NCBI RefSeq assembly: GCF_016809835.1
Contig: NZ_JAFBIL020000001.1
Coordinates: forward strand, 868,001 to 932,000
Direction of reading: 5' to 3'
Source of the DNA: Massilia soli
Lineage (GTDB): Bacteria > Pseudomonadota > Gammaproteobacteria > Burkholderiales > Burkholderiaceae_D
Length of the DNA: 64,000 nucleotides
Notes under the pieces: model-generated
The model's input: only the letters and a program-made list of their open reading frames with translations
Database searches by the model: none
Told to the model about the DNA's origin: nothing
In this document: one piece after another, positions 13,340-63,052 of the stretch
Position numbering within the stretch: position 1 is the first letter of the stretch
Layout of the letters: the number at the start of each line of letters is the position of its first letter
Made by a program: the position numbers and the translations under genes

Positions 13340-13386
13340 TTGCAACAAAAGCGATTTCAGATAATACTGTATGGAATTACAGTAGT
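13340..13386 (+). promoter_or_regulatory. dinB promoter with LexA (SOS) box
   Basis: A perfect CTGT-N8-ACAG box (CTGTATGGAATTACAG, 13367-13382), extended by TA/TA on both sides, overlaps the -10 TAATAC (13362-13367) of a promoter whose -35 is TTGCAA (13340-13345, 16-base spacer). The next gene is the translesion polymerase dinB, a classic LexA target, so LexA repression is well supported. Confidence 0.88.
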
Positions 13387-54062: not shown

Positions 54063-55691
54063 ATGGCCCACATCCACCCGACCGGCTGGCGCGAGATGTC
54101 CATCACCGGCACCGCCGCGCGCGAGATTGAAACGCTGTCCTACCTGGACGAGCAACTTTCCTGTGATCCCTACAGCATTTACCACGGCGTCCACTGGACC
54201 AACGTAGAGCAAGGTTTCTCAGCCTACGGCGAAATCGACTTCATCATCGTCGCCCCAAACGGGCGGGTACTGCTGATTGAACAGAAATCCGGCTTTCTGA
54301 CTGAAACACCGGAAGGCCTGGTCAAGAGCTACCAGGGCAAGCCCCGCAAAATTCGCAACCAGATCCTGCGCACCATCGAAGGCCTGGTAAAGCGCTTCGG
54401 CGGCGAACTATCGATCGATTACCTGCTGTATTGCCCCGACTACACCGTTCGCGACCCGCACCTGGCTGGCATTGACCCGCGCCACATCATCGACGCCACT
54501 GCCGCAGCCCGGCTGGCGCAGGTGATCCGCGATGTGCTGCCGGTTTCCGACTTCAGCGACCAGTTCGAGAAAGTGACACGCTTTCTCGGCGACACCCTGA
54601 GCCTGCGGCCCGACCCCAGCGCCATGATCGGCTGCGCCACCGACATGGTGACGCGCCTGTCGGGCGGGCTGGCAACGTGGGCGCGCCGGCTCGACTTTAC
54701 GCCGCACCGGCTGCGCGTGGTCGGCACCGCCGGCAGCGGCAAAACCCAGCTGGCGCTGGCCGAATACGCGGACGCGATCGATGCAGGCCTGCGCCCGCTG
54801 TATGTGTGCTACAACCGGCCGCTTGCCGACCACATCCAGCGCCTGGTGCCGGCTGGCGGAAGGGTGGCCAACTTCCATATGCTTGGCGACGCCTTCATGC
54901 GCGCGCAGGGCATCACGCCCGATTACTCATCGCCCGAGGTGTGGGGCGAGATGGAGCGGGCGCTGTCCACCGCCGAGCTGCCGGAAACCTGGATGTACGA
55001 CGTGCTGATCGTCGACGAGGGGCAAGATTTCTCCGTCACCTGGCGCAACATTCTGCTGCGCATGCTGAAGGAGGGCGGCCGCGCCACCTGGCTGGAGGAC
55101 CCGACGCAGAACCTGTACGGCCGCGACATGGTGCCGCTGCCGGGGTGGGTGACGTTGAATTCGCATACTAACTATCGCAGCCCGAGGCAGATTGTTGACA
55201 TGCTGGCGTCGATCGGCGAGGCGCGCCAGCCGGTGGAGGCGGCCAGCCCGTTTGAGGGCGCGGATATCGAGGCGCTGGTGTATGAGGAGGGCGATGTCGA
55301 GGCGATGCTGGCGCAGACCAAGCATGCGATTACGCTGTGCCTTGCGGCAGGGTTCGCGCGGCAGGATATTGCGATTGCGTCGTTCAGGGGGCGGGAGAAG
55401 TCGGCCATTTTGGGCAGGGATACGCTGGGCGATGCGCATACGCTGAAGTCGTTCACGGGGGCGTACGACTTGTTTGGAAGTCCTATTTTCCGAGACGGCG
55501 GATTGCTGGCGGAGTCGGTGTACAGGTTTAAGGGGCAGTCGGCACCGGCGGTGATTTTTACGGAGATCGATTTTGAGTCGATTGATGAGCTGGTGTTTAG
55601 AAAGCTGTTTGTGGGTATGACAAGGGCGAGGTTGAAGCTGGTGTTGGTGTTGAGCGAGAGAGCGGCAGAGCGCATGCTTGATCAGATCTGA
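54063..55691 (+). CDS. NERD nuclease-related domain fused to a UvrD-like helicase
   Basis: A 542-residue protein. The front (about 10-120) is a nuclease-related domain with a PD-(D/E)XK-like site, GEIDFIIVAPNGRVLLIEQK. An SF1 helicase follows with Walker A GTAGSGKTQLALAEY near residue 225, Walker B VLIVDEGQDFSV near 320 and a late motif VGMTRARLKLVL near 515. It should use ATP to work on DNA, with a possible nuclease activity. The last third (from about 55200) uses different synonymous codons (more G/T-ending, AGG/AGA) than the first part. It directly precedes the AT-rich restriction island and may be defence-related. Confidence 0.9.
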   Translation: MAHIHPTGWREMSITGTAAREIETLSYLDEQLSCDPYSIYHGVHWTNVEQGFSAYGEIDFIIVAPNGRVLLIEQKSGFLTETPEGLVKSYQGKPRKIRNQILRTIEGLVKRFGGELSIDYLLYCPDYTVRDPHLAGIDPRHIIDATAAARLAQVIRDVLPVSDFSDQFEKVTRFLGDTLSLRPDPSAMIGCATDMVTRLSGGLATWARRLDFTPHRLRVVGTAGSGKTQLALAEYADAIDAGLRPLYVCYNRPLADHIQRLVPAGGRVANFHMLGDAFMRAQGITPDYSSPEVWGEMERALSTAELPETWMYDVLIVDEGQDFSVTWRNILLRMLKEGGRATWLEDPTQNLYGRDMVPLPGWVTLNSHTNYRSPRQIVDMLASIGEARQPVEAASPFEGADIEALVYEEGDVEAMLAQTKHAITLCLAAGFARQDIAIASFRGREKSAILGRDTLGDAHTLKSFTGAYDLFGSPIFRDGGLLAESVYRFKGQSAPAVIFTEIDFESIDELVFRKLFVGMTRARLKLVLVLSERAAERMLDQI

Positions 55692-56038
55692 TCTGACTCG
55701 GCGGGGTGAGACCGACCCATCGGAATATACGTTGTGGAATGGATACCGGCTTCCTCAGCAAAACAGAGGGACATCTCTCTGTCGGTGGAGAAAAGCACTA
55801 CCCCGTACGGTTCAGGGCGGCGACAAGGCGAGCGCTACGTCAAAATGAAATTGATTTAGGCTGGCTGCGGATATATACTGTACATAAACACAGTAATCGA
55901 ATCTGTGGCCGCTATGGACATTTTTTGCTGTTGTTCATGCTGAGTAAAACGCCGAATGTATAATGGTTGCGTTGCTCGACGCGGCGCGCCCTTGTCTCTG
56001 ATGGGACGGCAAGATCTGAATTTGATGGAGAATTATTC
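55692..56038. other. Intergenic region at the left edge of the AT-rich island
   Basis: 347 bases between the helicase gene and the methyltransferase. GC falls from left to right. It holds the SOS promoter described separately and a second TATAAT (55959-55964) with a poor -35 (TTCATG, 19-base spacer). An open frame at 55706-55963 runs through the SOS box and is not credible as a gene. Confidence 0.6.
55851..55895 (+). promoter_or_regulatory. Promoter with LexA (SOS) box upstream of the restriction-modification genes
   Basis: TACTGTACATAAACACAGTA (55876-55895) is a perfect CTGT-N8-ACAG LexA box. It overlaps the -10 TATACT (55874-55879) of a promoter with -35 TTGATT (55851-55856) and an ideal 17-base spacer. 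The next gene in this direction is the cytosine methyltransferase, 144 bases away. Alternatively the box may be left over from a lost SOS gene. Confidence 0.82.
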
Positions 56039-57016
56039 TTGAAGCATGCACCAAAGGTTCTTTCACTGTTCACAGGGGGCGGCGGGCTCGATATCGGGCT
56101 AGAAATGGCTGGTTTTGATACGGTTGCTTGTGTGGATAACGATAATGATTCGTGTAGTACATTACGATTTAACCGTCCTCAGTGGACGGTATTTGAAGGT
56201 GATGTCCGCGAATTTCAGCCCCCCTCAGGGAAGTTTGATCTTGTTGTCGGCGGCCCCCCTTGCCAGGGGTTCAGCACTGCGGGTAAGGGGAATCCAAATG
56301 ACCCGAGAAATTTTCTTTGGCGTGAATATTTTCGCATCGTTGAACGTGTTCGCCCGCGAGCATTATTGCTCGAAAATGTCTCCGGTATGGCCTCGAAAAA
56401 GAATGCCCATCATTTGGAAGAATTCAAGCAAAAACTTGAGTCGCTCGGCTATCAGGTGACGAGTGGAATTCTCGATGCAGCTGATTTCGGTGTCCCCCAA
56501 CATCGCAAGCGTTTGATTGTCCTTGCTGGCTTGGGGTGGAAGCCGCAATTACCTGCAGTCGAACCATCACGGAGACTTGTCCCTGCGCGCGAAGCTATCG
56601 GTGACTTACAACGTAGGAAAGTGTTTCCAAATCATCAGCCGAATGACCACGCTCCGCATGTTGTAGCTAGGTGGGAAAAGCTCGCTCAGGGTGAAGTTGA
56701 TCCGAATTACCGCCGTGGTCGGATATATTCAGACCGTCCTAGCCCAACGATCCGAGCTGGGGGGGGGTATGGGCCTAAAGGAGATCACTTAGCTGGATTC
56801 CATCCACCGATCCACTACTCGCTACCGCGGCAGCTAACCGTAAGGGAGTCTGCGCGGATCCAGTCCTTCCCTGATGACTGGATCTTCTGCGGGTCTAAGA
56901 CAGCGCAGGGTCGGCAAGTTGGTAATGCTGTTCCCCCGCTGCTTGCTGCAGCCGTTGGCCGTTCCCTGTTGGACGGGTTAGCGAAGGCCGCGTTGAGTGA
57001 GAAGCTGGTTGCATAG
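56039..57016 (+). CDS. DNA (cytosine-C5) methyltransferase
   Basis: A 325-residue C5-cytosine methyltransferase. Motif I is LSLFTGGGGLDIGLEMAGFD (SAM site), motif IV GGPPCQGFS with catalytic C75, motif VI ENVSG, motif VIII QHRKRLIVL, and motif X QVGNAVPPLLAAAVG. The start is TTG 56039, with GGAG eight bases upstream; a TTG at 55967 lacks a ribosome-binding site. It transfers a methyl group from SAM to cytosine in a short target. With Vsr five bases downstream and a NotI-like endonuclease opposite, it is the protecting enzyme of a type II system. GC is about 40% on a hand-counted line. Confidence 0.95.
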   Translation: MKHAPKVLSLFTGGGGLDIGLEMAGFDTVACVDNDNDSCSTLRFNRPQWTVFEGDVREFQPPSGKFDLVVGGPPCQGFSTAGKGNPNDPRNFLWREYFRIVERVRPRALLLENVSGMASKKNAHHLEEFKQKLESLGYQVTSGILDAADFGVPQHRKRLIVLAGLGWKPQLPAVEPSRRLVPAREAIGDLQRRKVFPNHQPNDHAPHVVARWEKLAQGEVDPNYRRGRIYSDRPSPTIRAGGGYGPKGDHLAGFHPPIHYSLPRQLTVRESARIQSFPDDWIFCGSKTAQGRQVGNAVPPLLAAAVGRSLLDGLAKAALSEKLVA

Positions 57017-57021
57017 CAAAG

Positions 57022-57426
57022 ATGGACGTATTTGACGCTGACTTCAGAAGTAAATTGATGTCGCGGATTCGTGGAAGTGGGAATTTAAGCACCGAATTGC
57101 GTGTAATAGAAATTTTTCGGCGTCTTGGTATAGCCGGATGGCGAAGGAAGTCAAATCTTATTGGTCGACCAGATTTTGTCTTCCATCGAGAGCGCGTAGT
57201 TGTATTTGTGGATGGCTGCTTTTGGCACGGGTGTCCTACGTGTGGCAAGGTCTCCAAATCGAATATCGAATACTGGACGCCGAAGATTATTGCTAATAAA
57301 AGCCGTGATTTGCGAGTATCGCGCCAACTAAGAAAAGATGGCTGGGCGGTGATACGAGTTTGGGAATGTCGGCTTCGTAACCCAATCGCATTCGTCTCAC
57401 GCTTGCGCAGGAAACTAAATCGCTGA
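57022..57426 (+). CDS. vsr: Very-short-patch repair (Vsr) endonuclease
   Basis: A 134-residue Vsr enzyme. The catalytic aspartate is D51 in GRPDFVFHR, with VDGCFWHGCP (H69) and the zinc-binding and YW...N..RD region following (NIEYWTPKIIANKSRDLR). Vsr nicks T:G mismatches formed when 5-methylcytosine deaminates, protecting against the mutagenic effect of the methyltransferase. It starts five bases after the methyltransferase stop, so both are on one transcript. The gene ends 12 bases before the stop of the convergent NotI-like gene. Confidence 0.95.
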   Translation: MDVFDADFRSKLMSRIRGSGNLSTELRVIEIFRRLGIAGWRRKSNLIGRPDFVFHRERVVVFVDGCFWHGCPTCGKVSKSNIEYWTPKIIANKSRDLRVSRQLRKDGWAVIRVWECRLRNPIAFVSRLRRKLNR

Positions 57427-57438
57427 GCCAAGAGAATG

Positions 57439-58446
57439 TTAAATTTCTTCCAACTCCAAAGAAAACACTTTGCTTTTTTTCGGTATTTTTTTCATCGGCA
57501 TTACCGCTGAGCTCACAATATGTTCAAAGTCTGTTCTCGACATTGGCGTAACAGCGTTCAACGCATCGCTTGCCGCAGCAATTGAGCAGTAAAGCATTTT
57601 CACGAGCGTGACTTTGTTTTCGGAAATTGATACGATTGCAAAAATAACAGAGCTAGCATTTAACCTGTGTGCTTCCGCCTTTTCTGGGTCATTTGCAAAT
57701 GTCGGCGGAATTTCGATTTCTCTGACATTGTGCATGTTTTCGAACACGAACTCATCAACGATGACTACCGTTTTCCTACCTGTTGCGTAAAGATGTTGAG
57801 CCTTGCTTTGCAACTGAGGAAGCAATCTTTTGGGAACAGAACTTTTATAATCTGGATGTCTATAATTTGGGGGCATGCTAAGCGCCCCATTATTTCGCAC
57901 CACACTCTCAAAATCATGTTTTTGGGTCTTCCCCGACATGTAGACCGACTGGGTTTCGACAGCGCAAAAATTCTGGGGATTTACCTTGTCGACGAGCAGC
58001 CAATCAATCCGCCCCGCATAAGCCGGCTTGCCAGACTTCAAAGTTTTGATCAAACTTATAGAGTATGGAACTTCCTTTACCAGAACAGGCTGAGCTTCTA
58101 CTCCAAGAATCTTGGCCGATATTTTTTTTAAGATTGATTTGGAAATAATGCGATGTGGGCAGATAGCCACTGGTATTCCTGCGCCTTCCACATGACCTTC
58201 CAGGGACTCTCGATATAACTGCACTGAACAAATCCCACCTTCTTTTGCACAAGTCTTTATCTGGCCAGTCAGCGCTGACAAGTGTCGGCACTCTCGGTTC
58301 GCATCCGTGTATTTTTTCTGCGCATCTGCGGCTAACGATAGCCGAGTGGCCTCATCAGCCTTAAAGACGTTTACGCCGAACCACTCGGCGGGGCCCCATT
58401 TGTCCGTTTTCGTCATGTAGAAATCCTTGATTGGACGCGGCAGCAT
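57439..58446 (-). CDS. Probable NotI-family restriction endonuclease
   Basis: A 335-residue protein. Residues 50-100 hold four cysteines (C53, C66, C73 in GGICSV and C96 in ICPHR), as in the iron-binding domain of NotI-type enzymes. The likely active site is D148 in AGRIDWLL and E164-x-Q166 in FCAVETQSVYMSG, matching NotI's unusual D...ExQ version of the PD-(D/E)XK site. AGGAGG five bases before ATG 58446 decides the start over an in-frame GTG at 58452. Its place next to a C5 methyltransferase and Vsr supports a restriction role. The assignment rests on motifs, not on overall similarity. GC is about 38% in a counted line. Confidence 0.75.
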   Translation of the reverse strand: MLPRPIKDFYMTKTDKWGPAEWFGVNVFKADEATRLSLAADAQKKYTDANRECRHLSALTGQIKTCAKEGGICSVQLYRESLEGHVEGAGIPVAICPHRIISKSILKKISAKILGVEAQPVLVKEVPYSISLIKTLKSGKPAYAGRIDWLLVDKVNPQNFCAVETQSVYMSGKTQKHDFESVVRNNGALSMPPNYRHPDYKSSVPKRLLPQLQSKAQHLYATGRKTVVIVDEFVFENMHNVREIEIPPTFANDPEKAEAHRLNASSVIFAIVSISENKVTLVKMLYCSIAAASDALNAVTPMSRTDFEHIVSSAVMPMKKIPKKSKVFSLELEEI

Positions 58447-58636
58447 CGCCACCTCCTGGTGCGTCGTAATTACTATTTTACTCCTGCAAAGTTGTTTTGC
58501 CGAATTATTTAGCGATGGCTAGCACTCATCGCCGCTTGCCCTCAAAAATTTTTTATGCAATAGTCCAAGGTTGGCAAGTTCTTCTAGTTTTATGCGACTC
58601 GCATAGAATGATCGATAGTCCACTTTTGGAGCAAGT

Positions 58637-60055
58637 ATGGTTAGCTCATCAGCACCCTTGGCAACACCAGGAAAGACCGCTAGCGCAAGTCCTGCAAAGA
58701 AATTTTTCGTCGACATGCTCGTCAGGGACATTGACTTGCATGACGCGATTCTTGATCTCCTAGATAACTGCGTTGATGGCGCTATGCGAAAGGCTGGCTC
58801 GGCGGGGAACGCGGGGATTTCGTTACCATACAAGGGCAGTGAAGCCCGCATAACGTTTGACGAAAATCGATTCATTGTCGAGGATAATTGTGGTGGAATC
58901 CCGTTAGCTCTTGCAGAACAGTATGCATTCCGCTTGGGCCGTGCCGACGTCGGTCGTGATAAAGATCTTCCGACCGTTGGTGTTTATGGCATCGGGATGA
59001 AGCGTGCTATTTTTAAGTTGGGTAGGCATGCTGAGATAAAGAGCCAAACTTCTCAAGGCGGACTTAAGGTAGAAATTTTGCCAGCTTGGCTCGAGGACGA
59101 TAATGATTGGTCTCTGCCATTGCAGGAATCGGAGAACGTTCTAAGTCAGGCCGGGACAAAAATTGTGGTTACTGAGCTGCGCGACGGAATTCCCCGAATC
59201 TTTTCCGACGAGACGGACTTCGAGCGAACCCTCAAGACAGCCATTTCGGCTTACTACGGCTACATTATTGACAAGGGTTTCTCGGTTTTCGTTAATGATG
59301 AAGAGATTTCTCCGGTTAAGGTGGCGTTAGTTACGGATGATTTTCAGACTAAAGACGGAATAACACCCTATATTTACGAAGGGAACATAAAGGGCGTCGA
59401 CGTGGTGGTGACTGTTGGGCTCTACCGTGCGCTTCCGAACGAAGATGAAGAGGACGCTGCTATGGAGGGCCGTCCTTCGACCGAGAAGGCAGGTTGGACA
59501 GTAGTGTGCAATGACAGGGTGGTTTTGTTTGCTGACAAAACTCGGGTGACCGGATGGGGTGAAGCAACAGTGCCGCAATACCACACACAGTTTATTTCCA
59601 TCGCCGGGACGGTGACATTTAAGTCAAACGACGCACGCTTGTTGCCTTTAACGACAACTAAAAGGGGGGTTGATGGAAACTCGGAGTTGTATCTAGAAGT
59701 TAAAGAATATATGCGCGAGGGATTGAAACTTTTCACTAACTTTACCAATAAATGGAAAAAATCGTCGAAAGAACTCCGCGCGATCAATGTTCAGACTACA
59801 ACTGTAGACCCTGAGATCGCATTTTCTCGAGTCCCGGCCGACAAGTGGTCAAATGTCCATCGAAATGACGGCAGGCGCTACAAGCCGAATCTTCCTCTGC
59901 CAAGCGAAGATGATCCAAGTCGACAGATACGATTTTCGCGGCGCATGAGCGAAATTGCCGAGGTTGCTTCTTACCTTTTTGATGACACAGGTCGCTCGGC
60001 TGGGGATGTGGGCGCCAAATGCTTCGATGACGTCCTCGACCGGGCTAAAAAATGA
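58637..60055 (+). CDS. GHKL (MORC/MutL-like) ATPase
   Basis: A 472-residue protein with a GHKL ATP-binding domain: N box DAILDLLDNCVDGA (36-49), G1 box VEDNCGGIP (81-89) and G2 box GVYGIGMKRA (115-124). A transducer-like region follows, with conserved lysine region TTTKRGVDGN near 348. The C-terminal 130 residues are charged and of unknown role. Prokaryotic MORC-like ATPases of this kind have been linked to restriction-modification loci (Iyer, Abhiman and Aravind). GGAG at 58628-58631 supports the start. It overlaps the next gene by four bases. GC is about 43%. Confidence 0.85.
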   Translation: MVSSSAPLATPGKTASASPAKKFFVDMLVRDIDLHDAILDLLDNCVDGAMRKAGSAGNAGISLPYKGSEARITFDENRFIVEDNCGGIPLALAEQYAFRLGRADVGRDKDLPTVGVYGIGMKRAIFKLGRHAEIKSQTSQGGLKVEILPAWLEDDNDWSLPLQESENVLSQAGTKIVVTELRDGIPRIFSDETDFERTLKTAISAYYGYIIDKGFSVFVNDEEISPVKVALVTDDFQTKDGITPYIYEGNIKGVDVVVTVGLYRALPNEDEEDAAMEGRPSTEKAGWTVVCNDRVVLFADKTRVTGWGEATVPQYHTQFISIAGTVTFKSNDARLLPLTTTKRGVDGNSELYLEVKEYMREGLKLFTNFTNKWKKSSKELRAINVQTTTVDPEIAFSRVPADKWSNVHRNDGRRYKPNLPLPSEDDPSRQIRFSRRMSEIAEVASYLFDDTGRSAGDVGAKCFDDVLDRAKK

Positions 60056-61029
60056 GCGGGGCTGGATCGATCCCGTATCACCTTCGTCAGAACAAGGCTA
60101 TCGATAGATCCTTGTTTATTGACCTTCTCAGTAGAATCAACCGGTATCGTAATATCTCTTCGTATTCCTATATCGGTTTTGGTGGGCCGTTTCTGGAGGA
60201 TTTCAGAACGTTGCATAGCGCCCTAAGAATCAAAACCATGATCTCGATCGAGTCGGATAAAAATGTTGCAGAGCGACAACGATTTAATCTTCCCACTTCC
60301 TGCATCACAATTTCGAACGAGCTCAGTGGCGATTTCCTGACGAGGCATACGTTTGACGCACCATCGATCGTCTGGTTCGATTATGCGGTTCCAAGCCAGT
60401 TAGGTAGTCAATTGGCAGAGGCACAGTCCTTGGTCTCAAAACTTGCTGCGGGAGATATCTTTAAAATCACCCTTAACGCTAGTCCTGAACCGTTAGGCCG
60501 CCCCAGAGATGGGAGCGATTTACGCGCGTTCCGCGCAGCGGAAGCTGCAAAGCGCCTTGCGGACTACGGTCCTGCGGTCTTAGATGTTGACGATGTCACC
60601 ACGAGAAGATTTCCAAACCTACTTTTGCATGCGCTCTTTAGTGCCTGCAAACGAGGAGTGAGCGGTGCACCTCGACTATACGTCCAGCCGCTTACGGCAT
60701 TCGTCTACAAAGATGGCCAGCAAATGATCACAGCGACAGCGATCATCTTGGATAAGCTAGATAAAGATGCTTTTTTGGCGCAGACGCGTTTGGCGCATTG
60801 GCCTCACAGCAGCCTCGATTGGGTGCGGCCTCGGTCGATTAGCATCCCGGATTTGTCGACGAAAGAGCGACTATTCATTGAATCGCTTTTACCTGGTGGG
60901 GCATCGACCGATATTCGGAACGCGCTCGGGTATTACGTCGGTTCTGATGAAGCAGACGCCGAGGAGTTAATGAGTAATTTTGTGACCTATTATCGGATGT
61001 CGCCTTCTTACTCTCGGGTGCTGGGTTAG
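60052..61029 (+). CDS. Methyltransferase-fold protein, partner of the GHKL ATPase
   Basis: A 325-residue protein that starts within the stop of the ATPase gene (ATGA overlap), so the two are made together. The front resembles a SAM-binding Rossmann fold: SYSYIGFGGPFLEDFRTLHS, then ISIESDKNVAERQRFNLP, where the E of ISIES sits like the acidic residue that binds the SAM ribose. IVWFDYAVPSQLG may be the following strand and loop. No catalytic motif of a DNA methyltransferase (such as NPPY or PCQ) is present, so it may methylate something else or only bind SAM. GC is about 43%. Confidence 0.75.
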   Translation: MSGAGSIPYHLRQNKAIDRSLFIDLLSRINRYRNISSYSYIGFGGPFLEDFRTLHSALRIKTMISIESDKNVAERQRFNLPTSCITISNELSGDFLTRHTFDAPSIVWFDYAVPSQLGSQLAEAQSLVSKLAAGDIFKITLNASPEPLGRPRDGSDLRAFRAAEAAKRLADYGPAVLDVDDVTTRRFPNLLLHALFSACKRGVSGAPRLYVQPLTAFVYKDGQQMITATAIILDKLDKDAFLAQTRLAHWPHSSLDWVRPRSISIPDLSTKERLFIESLLPGGASTDIRNALGYYVGSDEADAEELMSNFVTYYRMSPSYSRVLG

Positions 61030-62162: not shown

Positions 62163-62654
62163 ATGGCTATCGACGTTTACGTGACGATTGACGGTATCAA
62201 GGGCGAATCGACTGATTCCACGCACCAGGGTTGGATCGAATGTGAGGCGGTAAGCTGGGCCATCTCGCAACCGCGTTCGGCAACGGCTTCGACGGGTGGA
62301 GGTCATACCGCAGAGCGCGCGGAATTGTCGGACATCACGTTTACAAAACTAGCCGATTTGACGTCGCCTATCCTGGCGCAAACGTGCGCGGCCGGCAAAA
62401 CCATTCCAAAAGCGAAGTTTGAATTCATGCGCGCGGACGGGCAAGGTGAGCGCGTCAAATACGACGAACTGGAGTTGGAAAACGTTCACATCGGTCATCT
62501 CGCGCCGAGCATCGCTCCTGGCAGCATCATGAGCGAGACTGTCGCCCTGAAATTTTCCAAGGTTAAATGGAAGTATACCCAACAAAAAGCCAGTGGCGGC
62601 GCTGGCGGCAATACCTCCGGCGGGTGGGATGCGGCAACCAATAGGATCGCCTGA
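62163..62654 (+). CDS. hcp: Hcp-family type VI secretion tube protein
   Basis: A 163-residue Hcp1-type protein: MAIDVYVTIDGIKGESTDST, then GWIECEAVSWAISQPRSAT and the family block KAKFEFMRADGQGERVKYDE. Hcp forms hexameric rings in the tail tube of the type VI secretion system and chaperones small effectors in its pore. AAAGGGGG nine bases upstream supports the start. Its stop overlaps the immunity gene (TGATG), so it is the first gene of a cargo operon. No other structural T6SS gene is in the window. Confidence 0.95.
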   Translation: MAIDVYVTIDGIKGESTDSTHQGWIECEAVSWAISQPRSATASTGGGHTAERAELSDITFTKLADLTSPILAQTCAAGKTIPKAKFEFMRADGQGERVKYDELELENVHIGHLAPSIAPGSIMSETVALKFSKVKWKYTQQKASGGAGGNTSGGWDAATNRIA

Positions 62655-63052
62655 TGGGCAGCTCATTGCTCTTGGCTACGTTGTTAGCCACGCAGTCGGG
62701 CGCGTTATTTGAATCGAACATCGACCTCAGGCGAAGCTACCCAGGCACCTTGACGGGCGATGCACTCCTTCGGGACTACATGGGCCCCCAGGGGCCGCGC
62801 GACGATCCATTTCTCAAGGGCGGCGACATCGTGAATCAGCAGATGGCGCGCGGGTACATGAACGGCATAAAGGACGCAGCAGAAGGCACAGTCTGGTGCT
62901 ACGTCGCCGGAAAACCTCACGAGCTGAACGACGACATTGCCGCTGCGCTAATAAAGCTACCTGCAAAAGACCTGCGCGGCCGCGCCGCGCCGCTAGTCGC
63001 CGACGCTCTTCGACGTCGATTCCCTTGCCCGGCAAAGCAGAGGTCGCCATGA
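62654..63052 (+). CDS. Rap1a/Tai-family immunity protein
   Basis: A 132-residue protein with a hydrophobic front (MGSSLLLATLLATQSGALFE) resembling a signal peptide. The body matches Rap1a/Tai immunity proteins: ARGYMNGIKDAAEGTVWCYV in the middle and ALRRRFPCP at the end, with two cysteines likely to form a disulfide. Such proteins sit in the periplasm and block Tae4-type amidases. The effector follows with a four-base overlap, which supports this reading. Exact pairing is inferred from gene order. Confidence 0.82.
   Translation: MGSSLLLATLLATQSGALFESNIDLRRSYPGTLTGDALLRDYMGPQGPRDDPFLKGGDIVNQQMARGYMNGIKDAAEGTVWCYVAGKPHELNDDIAAALIKLPAKDLRGRAAPLVADALRRRFPCPAKQRSP

Follow-up and report, generated by a model that had tools for sequence, protein, structure and literature searches.

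A MORC-type ATPase and its Methyltransf_35 partner beside C5 cytosine methyltransferases: a candidate three-component DNA defence module at a Massilia soli locus

That prokaryotic MORC ATPases occur among Dcm and Vsr genes was described in 2008, on the grounds of sequence and gene context (Iyer, Abhiman and Aravind, PMC2292703). That study unites the MORCs by a motif of the S5 domain, GhXhhpXXRhl, and proposes DNA looping for those found in restriction systems; for a nematode MORC, topological entrapment of DNA is reported (PMC8277788). Here we describe an AT-rich island of Massilia soli in which such an ATPase is paired with a second protein that has the fold of an S-adenosylmethionine (SAM)-dependent methyltransferase. 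The island lies in the window, that is, the whole analysed stretch of 64 000 nucleotides (contig NZ_JAFBIL020000001.1, positions 868 001 to 932 000). Whereas MORC genes in Dcm/Vsr neighbourhoods are known, the partner of the Methyltransf_35 family, a three-gene form in P2-type phages and a place of the pair inside DISARM operons go beyond the published descriptions that we found.

The first-pass annotation had placed five genes and an SOS-box promoter in the region 55851–61029. All five open reading frames (ORFs) are present, and their identities as C5 methyltransferase, Vsr, NotI-like enzyme, GHKL (MORC-like) ATPase and SAM-fold partner are supported by the matches given here, as is a LexA-type site upstream of the first gene:

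55876–55895: site TACTGTACATAAACACAGTA, of the pattern TACTGT-N8-ACAGTA, which we take to be a LexA-type (SOS) box, about 140 bases before the likely start of the C5 methyltransferase gene
56039–57016, plus strand: C5 cytosine DNA methyltransferase (C5MT; Pfam DNA_methylase, 1e-64; PCQ, ENV and QxRxR-type motifs)
57022–57426, plus strand: Vsr mismatch endonuclease (DGCFWHGC motif; Pfam Vsr, 2.3e-18; TIGR00632, 108.5 bits, cut-off 97.85)
57439–58452, minus strand: NotI-family restriction endonuclease (PF12183, 6.6e-32, 111 bits, cut-off 22)
58637–60055, plus strand: prokaryotic MORC (GHKL + S5) ATPase (PF13589 HATPase_c_3, 5.9e-7; motif GWTVVCNDRVV)
60052–61029, plus strand: partner with a class I SAM-methyltransferase fold (Methyltransf_35, PF20553, 1.6e-82), its gene overlapping the ATPase gene by 4 bases

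The C5MT gene probably starts at 56039, with a TTG preceded by GGAG, and not at 55967, the start of the longest ORF. The methyltransferase and endonuclease genes stand side by side with the Vsr gene between them, which is the layout of a type II restriction-modification system, and the NotI gene, on the minus strand, separates the Vsr gene from the GHKL gene. Its product has in common with three relatives the blocks [RK]ID, ExQxVY and KRLxPQLQ, and four cysteines. The G+C contents of 38–43% given previously for the genes did not hold: the recomputed values are 53.2% (C5MT), 46.9% (Vsr), 45.7% (NotI), 49.4% (GHKL) and 50.2% (partner), and the island as a whole has 48.9%, compared with 63.2% for positions 1–55000 of the window.

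The locus set came from 84 980 species genomes, scanned with an alignment of the partner protein, and the best 80 of 89 loci were used; the near-obligate presence of the partner follows from how these loci were found. In 79 of the 80, the gene immediately upstream of the partner gene encodes a MORC protein, and the two genes often overlap. L089 is the exception: its contig begins 1.4 kb before the partner gene, and an ATPase match is on the opposite strand. ATPase and partner have diverged together, with a Mantel r of 0.81 (the largest of 500 permutations reached 0.18); the values for ATPase and C5MT and for partner and C5MT are 0.48 and 0.35, the set being the 57 loci that have a C5MT nearby, among them viral loci and the window. 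The distribution of the partner family is sporadic: it was found in 3 of 369 genomes of the class, 5 of 245 of the family and 2 of 17 of the genus, the M. soli genome being counted each time.

Linkage to a C5MT is frequent outside DISARM operons. This subset comprises 57 of the 80 loci; in 39 of them the flanks extend 3 kb or more on each side, and 34 loci have 8-kb flanks. A C5MT gene lies within 3 kb of the pair in 48 of the 57 loci and in 36 of the 39, and in a control with the 34 loci 27 of 35 C5MT hits fall in the first kb. The order C5MT-Vsr-MORC-partner recurs in five loci (L063, L066, L085, L095 and L099). NotI was rejected as a conserved partner: a phmmer search with the NotI-family protein of the window as query found no neighbour of this kind in the 80 loci, and a scan of viral loci with it gave no relative. 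Since a C5MT is near the pair in most loci and NotI in none of the 80, the conserved unit appears to be the pair plus cytosine methylation and not the pair plus NotI. The phmmer search does not recover two weak NotI relatives detected by Pfam (L133 and L134), so that a NotI of high divergence might escape it, and the absence of a C5MT is less sure for odd C5MTs, because the C5MT profile was trained on proteins of the same loci.

We surveyed neighbouring proteins for a hidden common nuclease, scanning 107 of 197 listed proteins, with family counts among the 25 shown of 149 families. This candidate was rejected, the commonest nuclease family being HNH_2 with five of the 107. The tie to restriction claimed by the first-pass annotation divides: it stands for C5MT, Vsr and DISARM genes and falls for NotI. 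As to whether the pair occurs mostly without restriction genes, endonucleases apart from Vsr were rarely recognised, but a methyltransferase was mostly present.

The smallest form of the system is found in phages and prophages. Of the 24 loci in IMG/VR that encode the partner, 21 (11 groups at 95% identity) have ATPase, partner and C5MT flanked by portal and replication genes of P2 type; any other ORF at this spot has at most 183 amino acids. PHROGs confirmed portal, terminase, scaffold and nicking proteins in those loci that were tested, and assigned both members of the pair to families of unknown function, phrog_20521 and phrog_19983. In prophages of Escherichia coli EC77 and 7/2, the RefSeq annotation has exactly three genes in the interval from portal to replication endonuclease; 47 of 5426 complete E. 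coli genomes contain the trio query to 80% or more, and two of them were examined in detail. The same P2 portal/replication spot is a hotspot of tested anti-phage systems according to Rousset et al. (PMC9122126), and four of the systems of Vassallo et al. (PMC9519451) are located there. The filamentous phage PfAC20 carries ATPase, partner and C5MT in this order, followed by an ORF of 105 amino acids without a Pfam match. In its description (PMC11878078) only the cytosine methyltransferase was counted, as an incomplete restriction system; because the pair stands beside it, the supposedly incomplete system may be complete. This minimal form, whether in the P2 loci, the prophages or PfAC20, contains no recognised nuclease or helicase. 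Hence the pair looks like a core component, and the earlier view of it as an add-on to a restriction endonuclease is not borne out.

Seventeen small extra ORFs are listed for the P2 loci, of which four were scanned, two matching DinI and two giving no match; the two largest types of extra ORF at the spot match DinI. A DinI-like gene was seen beside the trio in some P2-like hotspots (L008:10251-10802 and L019:10221-10757).

In 23 of the 80 loci the pair lies within a DISARM operon, most often in the order drmD-drmMI-ATPase-partner-drmA-drmB. C5MT genes exist in 17 and Vsr genes in 16 of these 23 stretches, mostly upstream. On a tree of 85 loci made by a quick method, the DISARM label needs two changes, compared with a mean of 21 after shuffling. 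Locus L095 is nested in the DISARM clade and has C5MT and Vsr genes directly before the pair, its contig ending after the pair. The tree is most simply read as one capture by DISARM followed by a single loss; this falls short of proof. Profiles of DrmA and DrmB had no match in the 20-kb region around the M. soli island (L032).

The sequence motifs of the ATPase place it among the MORCs. Residues D40/N44, D83-C85-G86-G87, G115-Y117-G118-G120-K122-R123 and K342 are invariant in all 60 rows of the ATPase alignment; the lysine taken as the catalytic basic residue of the S5 domain is a prediction. The MORC S5 motif is recognised in 56 of the 60 rows and in one of 303 background ORFs. The ATPase model has a predicted local distance difference test score (pLDDT) of 88.9, and the top VIA-align matches, in a listing that barely covers the last 50 or so residues, are MORC3 (Z 22.4 over 305 residues, 4.0 Å) and MORC4 (Z 22.1 over 294 residues, 3.9 Å), with Hsp90 only about 1 Z lower, at 21.1. 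Foldseek, unlike VIA-align, ranks TRAP1/Hsp90 first. Eight stand-alone loci also encode a second, longer MORC-like GHKL protein of 546–610 amino acids with a variable C-terminal part, mostly beside the C5MT gene (L036:1021-2853, L037:11611-13356, L038:6846-8486, L042, L044, L046, L052 and L067). Hypoth_Ymh (PF09509) forms the C-terminal part in L038, and the protein is perhaps the paraMORC1 of Iyer et al.

Pfam describes the partner family as a 'putative O-methyltransferase'. The partner model (pLDDT 93.9) has a class I (Rossmann) methyltransferase fold, and Foldseek ranks Trm1 first (E 6.5e-8; template modelling score 0.43 by query). In VIA-align, Trm1 has a Z of 14.4, tied with others, over 214 residues at 3.8 Å, the longest among the 50 alignments shown. 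An acidic residue at position 67 and D110 are conserved in all 67 rows of the partner alignment; with its pocket-type residues thus conserved, the partner is a putative SAM-binding protein and methyl transferase. PADLOC and NCBIfam gave no match up to an E value of 1 for the NotI-like protein, the ATPase or the partner, and a PDB sequence search found nothing for the NotI-like protein or for the partner and gave the ATPase two rows at chance level.

From the observed gene pairing, C5MT linkage, placement in hotspots and prophages, folds and conserved motifs, we propose, with middling confidence, that C5MT, MORC ATPase and SAM-fold partner constitute a methylation-gated DNA defence module of three components, to which nucleases are optional. 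Its defence activity, the formation of a complex, the gating by methylation and its action without a nuclease would work as follows. The C5MT would mark host (self) DNA, and ATPase and partner would form a complex that engages DNA without the mark. Driven by ATP, a MORC-type clamp would close on this DNA, the partner serving as a SAM-dependent modifier or sensor, and the clamped DNA would be stopped in replication or expression. Cleavage, where present, might come from interchangeable modules: NotI and perhaps Vsr in the island, HNH in a few loci and DISARM in one clade. In the window, the module and a NotI-type restriction cassette would have one C5MT in common, the sole one found in the genome, and would stand behind a LexA-type promoter.

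A comparison of related loci bears on how the mark might be used. ATPases that are 62–67% alike can stand beside C5MTs whose recognition regions are only 24–27% alike (L036–L038 versus L039; L005 and L040 versus L041). Such low likeness is not the rule, the median identity of the recognition regions being 56% at 65–75% ATPase identity. These sequences suggest an occasional exchange of the partner methyltransferase, presumably along with its site, and we infer that such exchange fits a device that reads or borrows a mark better than a site-specific nuclease. On a Rhodoferax contig (L043:8610-15709), two ATPase-partner pairs of different lineages flank one C5MT.

A more far-reaching version can be offered tentatively. 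It holds that the MORC clamp and the partner provide immunity without a nuclease, by silencing or compacting DNA that has no C5 mark; the device would be able to exchange its C5MT, would have been captured by DISARM, and would correspond, in living prokaryotes, to the MORC silencing that is linked to methylation in eukaryotes.

The left boundary of the island is a gene outside it:

54063–55691, plus strand: NERD-UvrD helicase, genus-conserved

This gene was rejected as a member of the island, as it has a host-like G+C content and is found in 11 of 16 other genomes of the genus, at 75–91% DNA identity (one copy, in G373, is partial). Within the 17 genomes of the genus, PF20553 is confined to that of M. 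soli and to G376, where it lies on another contig. Nine stretches downstream of NERD-UvrD genes include one with a C5MT, one with Vsr and C5MT, and seven with none of the tested families. This variable content makes the spot look like an insertion hotspot. In a genome of another genus of the same family (L154:2758-13391), a divergent pair of ATPase and partner, with another C5MT and Vsr, lies within 4 kb behind a NERD-UvrD relative; a similar spot may have received a similar module twice. NERD domains were found in three of the 107 scanned neighbour proteins of other loci. To the right of the island, at 62163–63052 of the window, a type VI secretion system Hcp gene is followed by a Rap1a-type immunity gene.

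The core of the LexA-type pattern, CTGT-N8-ACAG, occurs twice in the window compared with an expectation of 0.5, and eight of 100 shuffles have two or more, which is weak evidence when taken alone. The full 12-base pattern exists at nine places in the 4.99-Mb genome, whereas its reversed control has none. A second full site in the window, TACTGTATGGAATTACAGTA, is at 13365–13384. Other sites lie near DnaE2-like, ImuB-like and CD-NTase-like genes, as judged by eye and without a search. The box at G000:C22:16215-16234 (L120) precedes the gene whose protein resembles a CD-NTase by eye, which suggests another damage-inducible defence system in this genome.

Several points weigh against the proposed module. 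A near C5MT is absent from three of the 39 well-flanked loci (L049, L054 and L059), and Vsr lies within 6 kb of the pair in only 24 of the 57 non-DISARM loci. A LexA-type core precedes a module gene in only one of 86 other scanned loci (L025), so SOS control is local, and we rejected it as a conserved feature of the module. The loci were found by means of peptide patterns and cut to the best 80, so that divergent ones are missed, and the binding of ATPase to partner and of partner to SAM is a prediction. A further doubt concerns the C5MT of the window, which is about 29–35% identical to the listed module C5MTs over most of its length (at most 37% over 165 residues). The nearest pairs are 64–72% alike in the ATPase despite this low identity. 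Because the C5MT is dissimilar although the pairs are close, the partnership in this island may be fortuitous.

The foremost rival treats the neighbours as unrelated: C5MT, Vsr and NotI would be an ordinary type II cassette, and the MORC pair would have been orphaned in the hotspot after losing its own C5MT. It is favoured by the company that NotI keeps elsewhere, as NotI genes adjoin a C5MT in three (L131, L133 and L134, not L132) of the four other class-sample genomes that have NotI, two of these NotI matches being weak (29–31 bits). It also agrees with the variable spot behind NERD-UvrD and with the motifs of the C5MT: motif VIII has the form APTxRxR in 43 of 57 module C5MTs, and PTxRAG[TS]G is present in 38 of 57 (the window counted both times), whereas the protein of the window has VPQHRKR and PTIRAGGG. 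Moreover, the C5MTs of the four nearest pairs (L036–L039) are 44–68% identical to each other and about 29–31% to that of the window. However, C5MTs without the common motifs occur in other module loci too, the order C5MT-Vsr-MORC-partner recurs in five other loci, and the C5MT of the window is the sole PF00145 match found in the genome. Nor does it fall in the NotI-linked group, the members of which, from three other genomes, have a mutual identity of 47–54% and are 35–38% identical to it over 168–181 residues. By sequence, it is thus close to neither of the usual lineages, module or NotI-linked. We regard an unrelated neighbourhood as possible but doubtful. In L131, L133 and L134 the NotI-family gene stands beside one group of C5MTs, in L131 also with Vsr, and so represents a recurrent NotI-type restriction cassette.

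It is unlikely that the pair is instead a modification device, in which the MORC ATPase loads the partner onto nucleic acid and a second methyl mark protects prophage or plasmid DNA from other systems. The partner keeps residues of a SAM pocket and others that we would assign to a motif IV-like site, its near folds include RNA base methyltransferases such as Trm1 and RsmD-like proteins, and the pair is common on prophages. However, the DISARM operons that hold 23 of the 80 pairs are restriction systems, and it is not obvious how protection by a mark could by itself account for so strictly kept an ATPase. A signalling pair, like the histidine kinase-like and response regulator-like (HEF_HK/Response_reg_2) genes reported beside the same neighbours, C5MT and Vsr, in PMC8011034, is very improbable, as none of the 60 ATPases matches HEF_HK and the partner of the window has no Response_reg_2 match, Methyltransf_35, a methyltransferase fold, being its sole Pfam match.

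The present data provide a minimal, recurrent form of the proposed methylation-gated module, with three genes and no recognised nuclease, that is testable in P2-like prophages of E. coli. Restriction by the pair without cutting, if it occurs, would reveal how MORC ATPases work outside eukaryotes, and the annotation of 'orphan' C5 methyltransferases would change. We found no published description of the Methyltransf_35/PF20553 partner, of the three-gene P2 form or of the pair within DISARM, although figures and supplements (e.g. of PMC9122126) may list the trio; a search that combined GHKL with anti-phage and cytosine methyltransferase gave no publication, most subscription journals being outside its reach.

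Compared with the prokaryotic MORC/paraMORC neighbourhoods of PMC2292703, the present loci likewise have a MORC-type GHKL-S5 ATPase beside a cytosine methylase and Vsr, in some cases without a helicase, and in both studies some loci (eight here) have a second GHKL protein with a C-terminal extension. However, helicases exist in around 70% of the neighbourhoods described in that study, whereas neither helicase nor nuclease is recognised in the P2 setting, and its text names no second SAM-fold partner, which is near-obligate here. The HEF_HK/Response_reg_2 elements of PMC8011034 also combine a GHKL ATPase pair with C5MT and Vsr, but the partner here is of another family and fold and HEF_HK is lacking. 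DISARM class 1 operons differ from the window, which has no drm genes, and the main text of the DISARM class 1 paper (PMC9142583) does not contain the words 'GHKL', 'HATPase' or 'Vsr'. With NotI-type type II restriction-modification systems the island shares a NotI-family nuclease by a C5MT and Vsr, to which it adds the MORC pair and a C5MT of another group. The eukaryotic MORC silencing ATPases have the same GHKL-S5 module and MORC motif, whereas the ATPase of the window has no MORC accessory domain matched by Pfam and is partnered by a protein with a methyltransferase fold.

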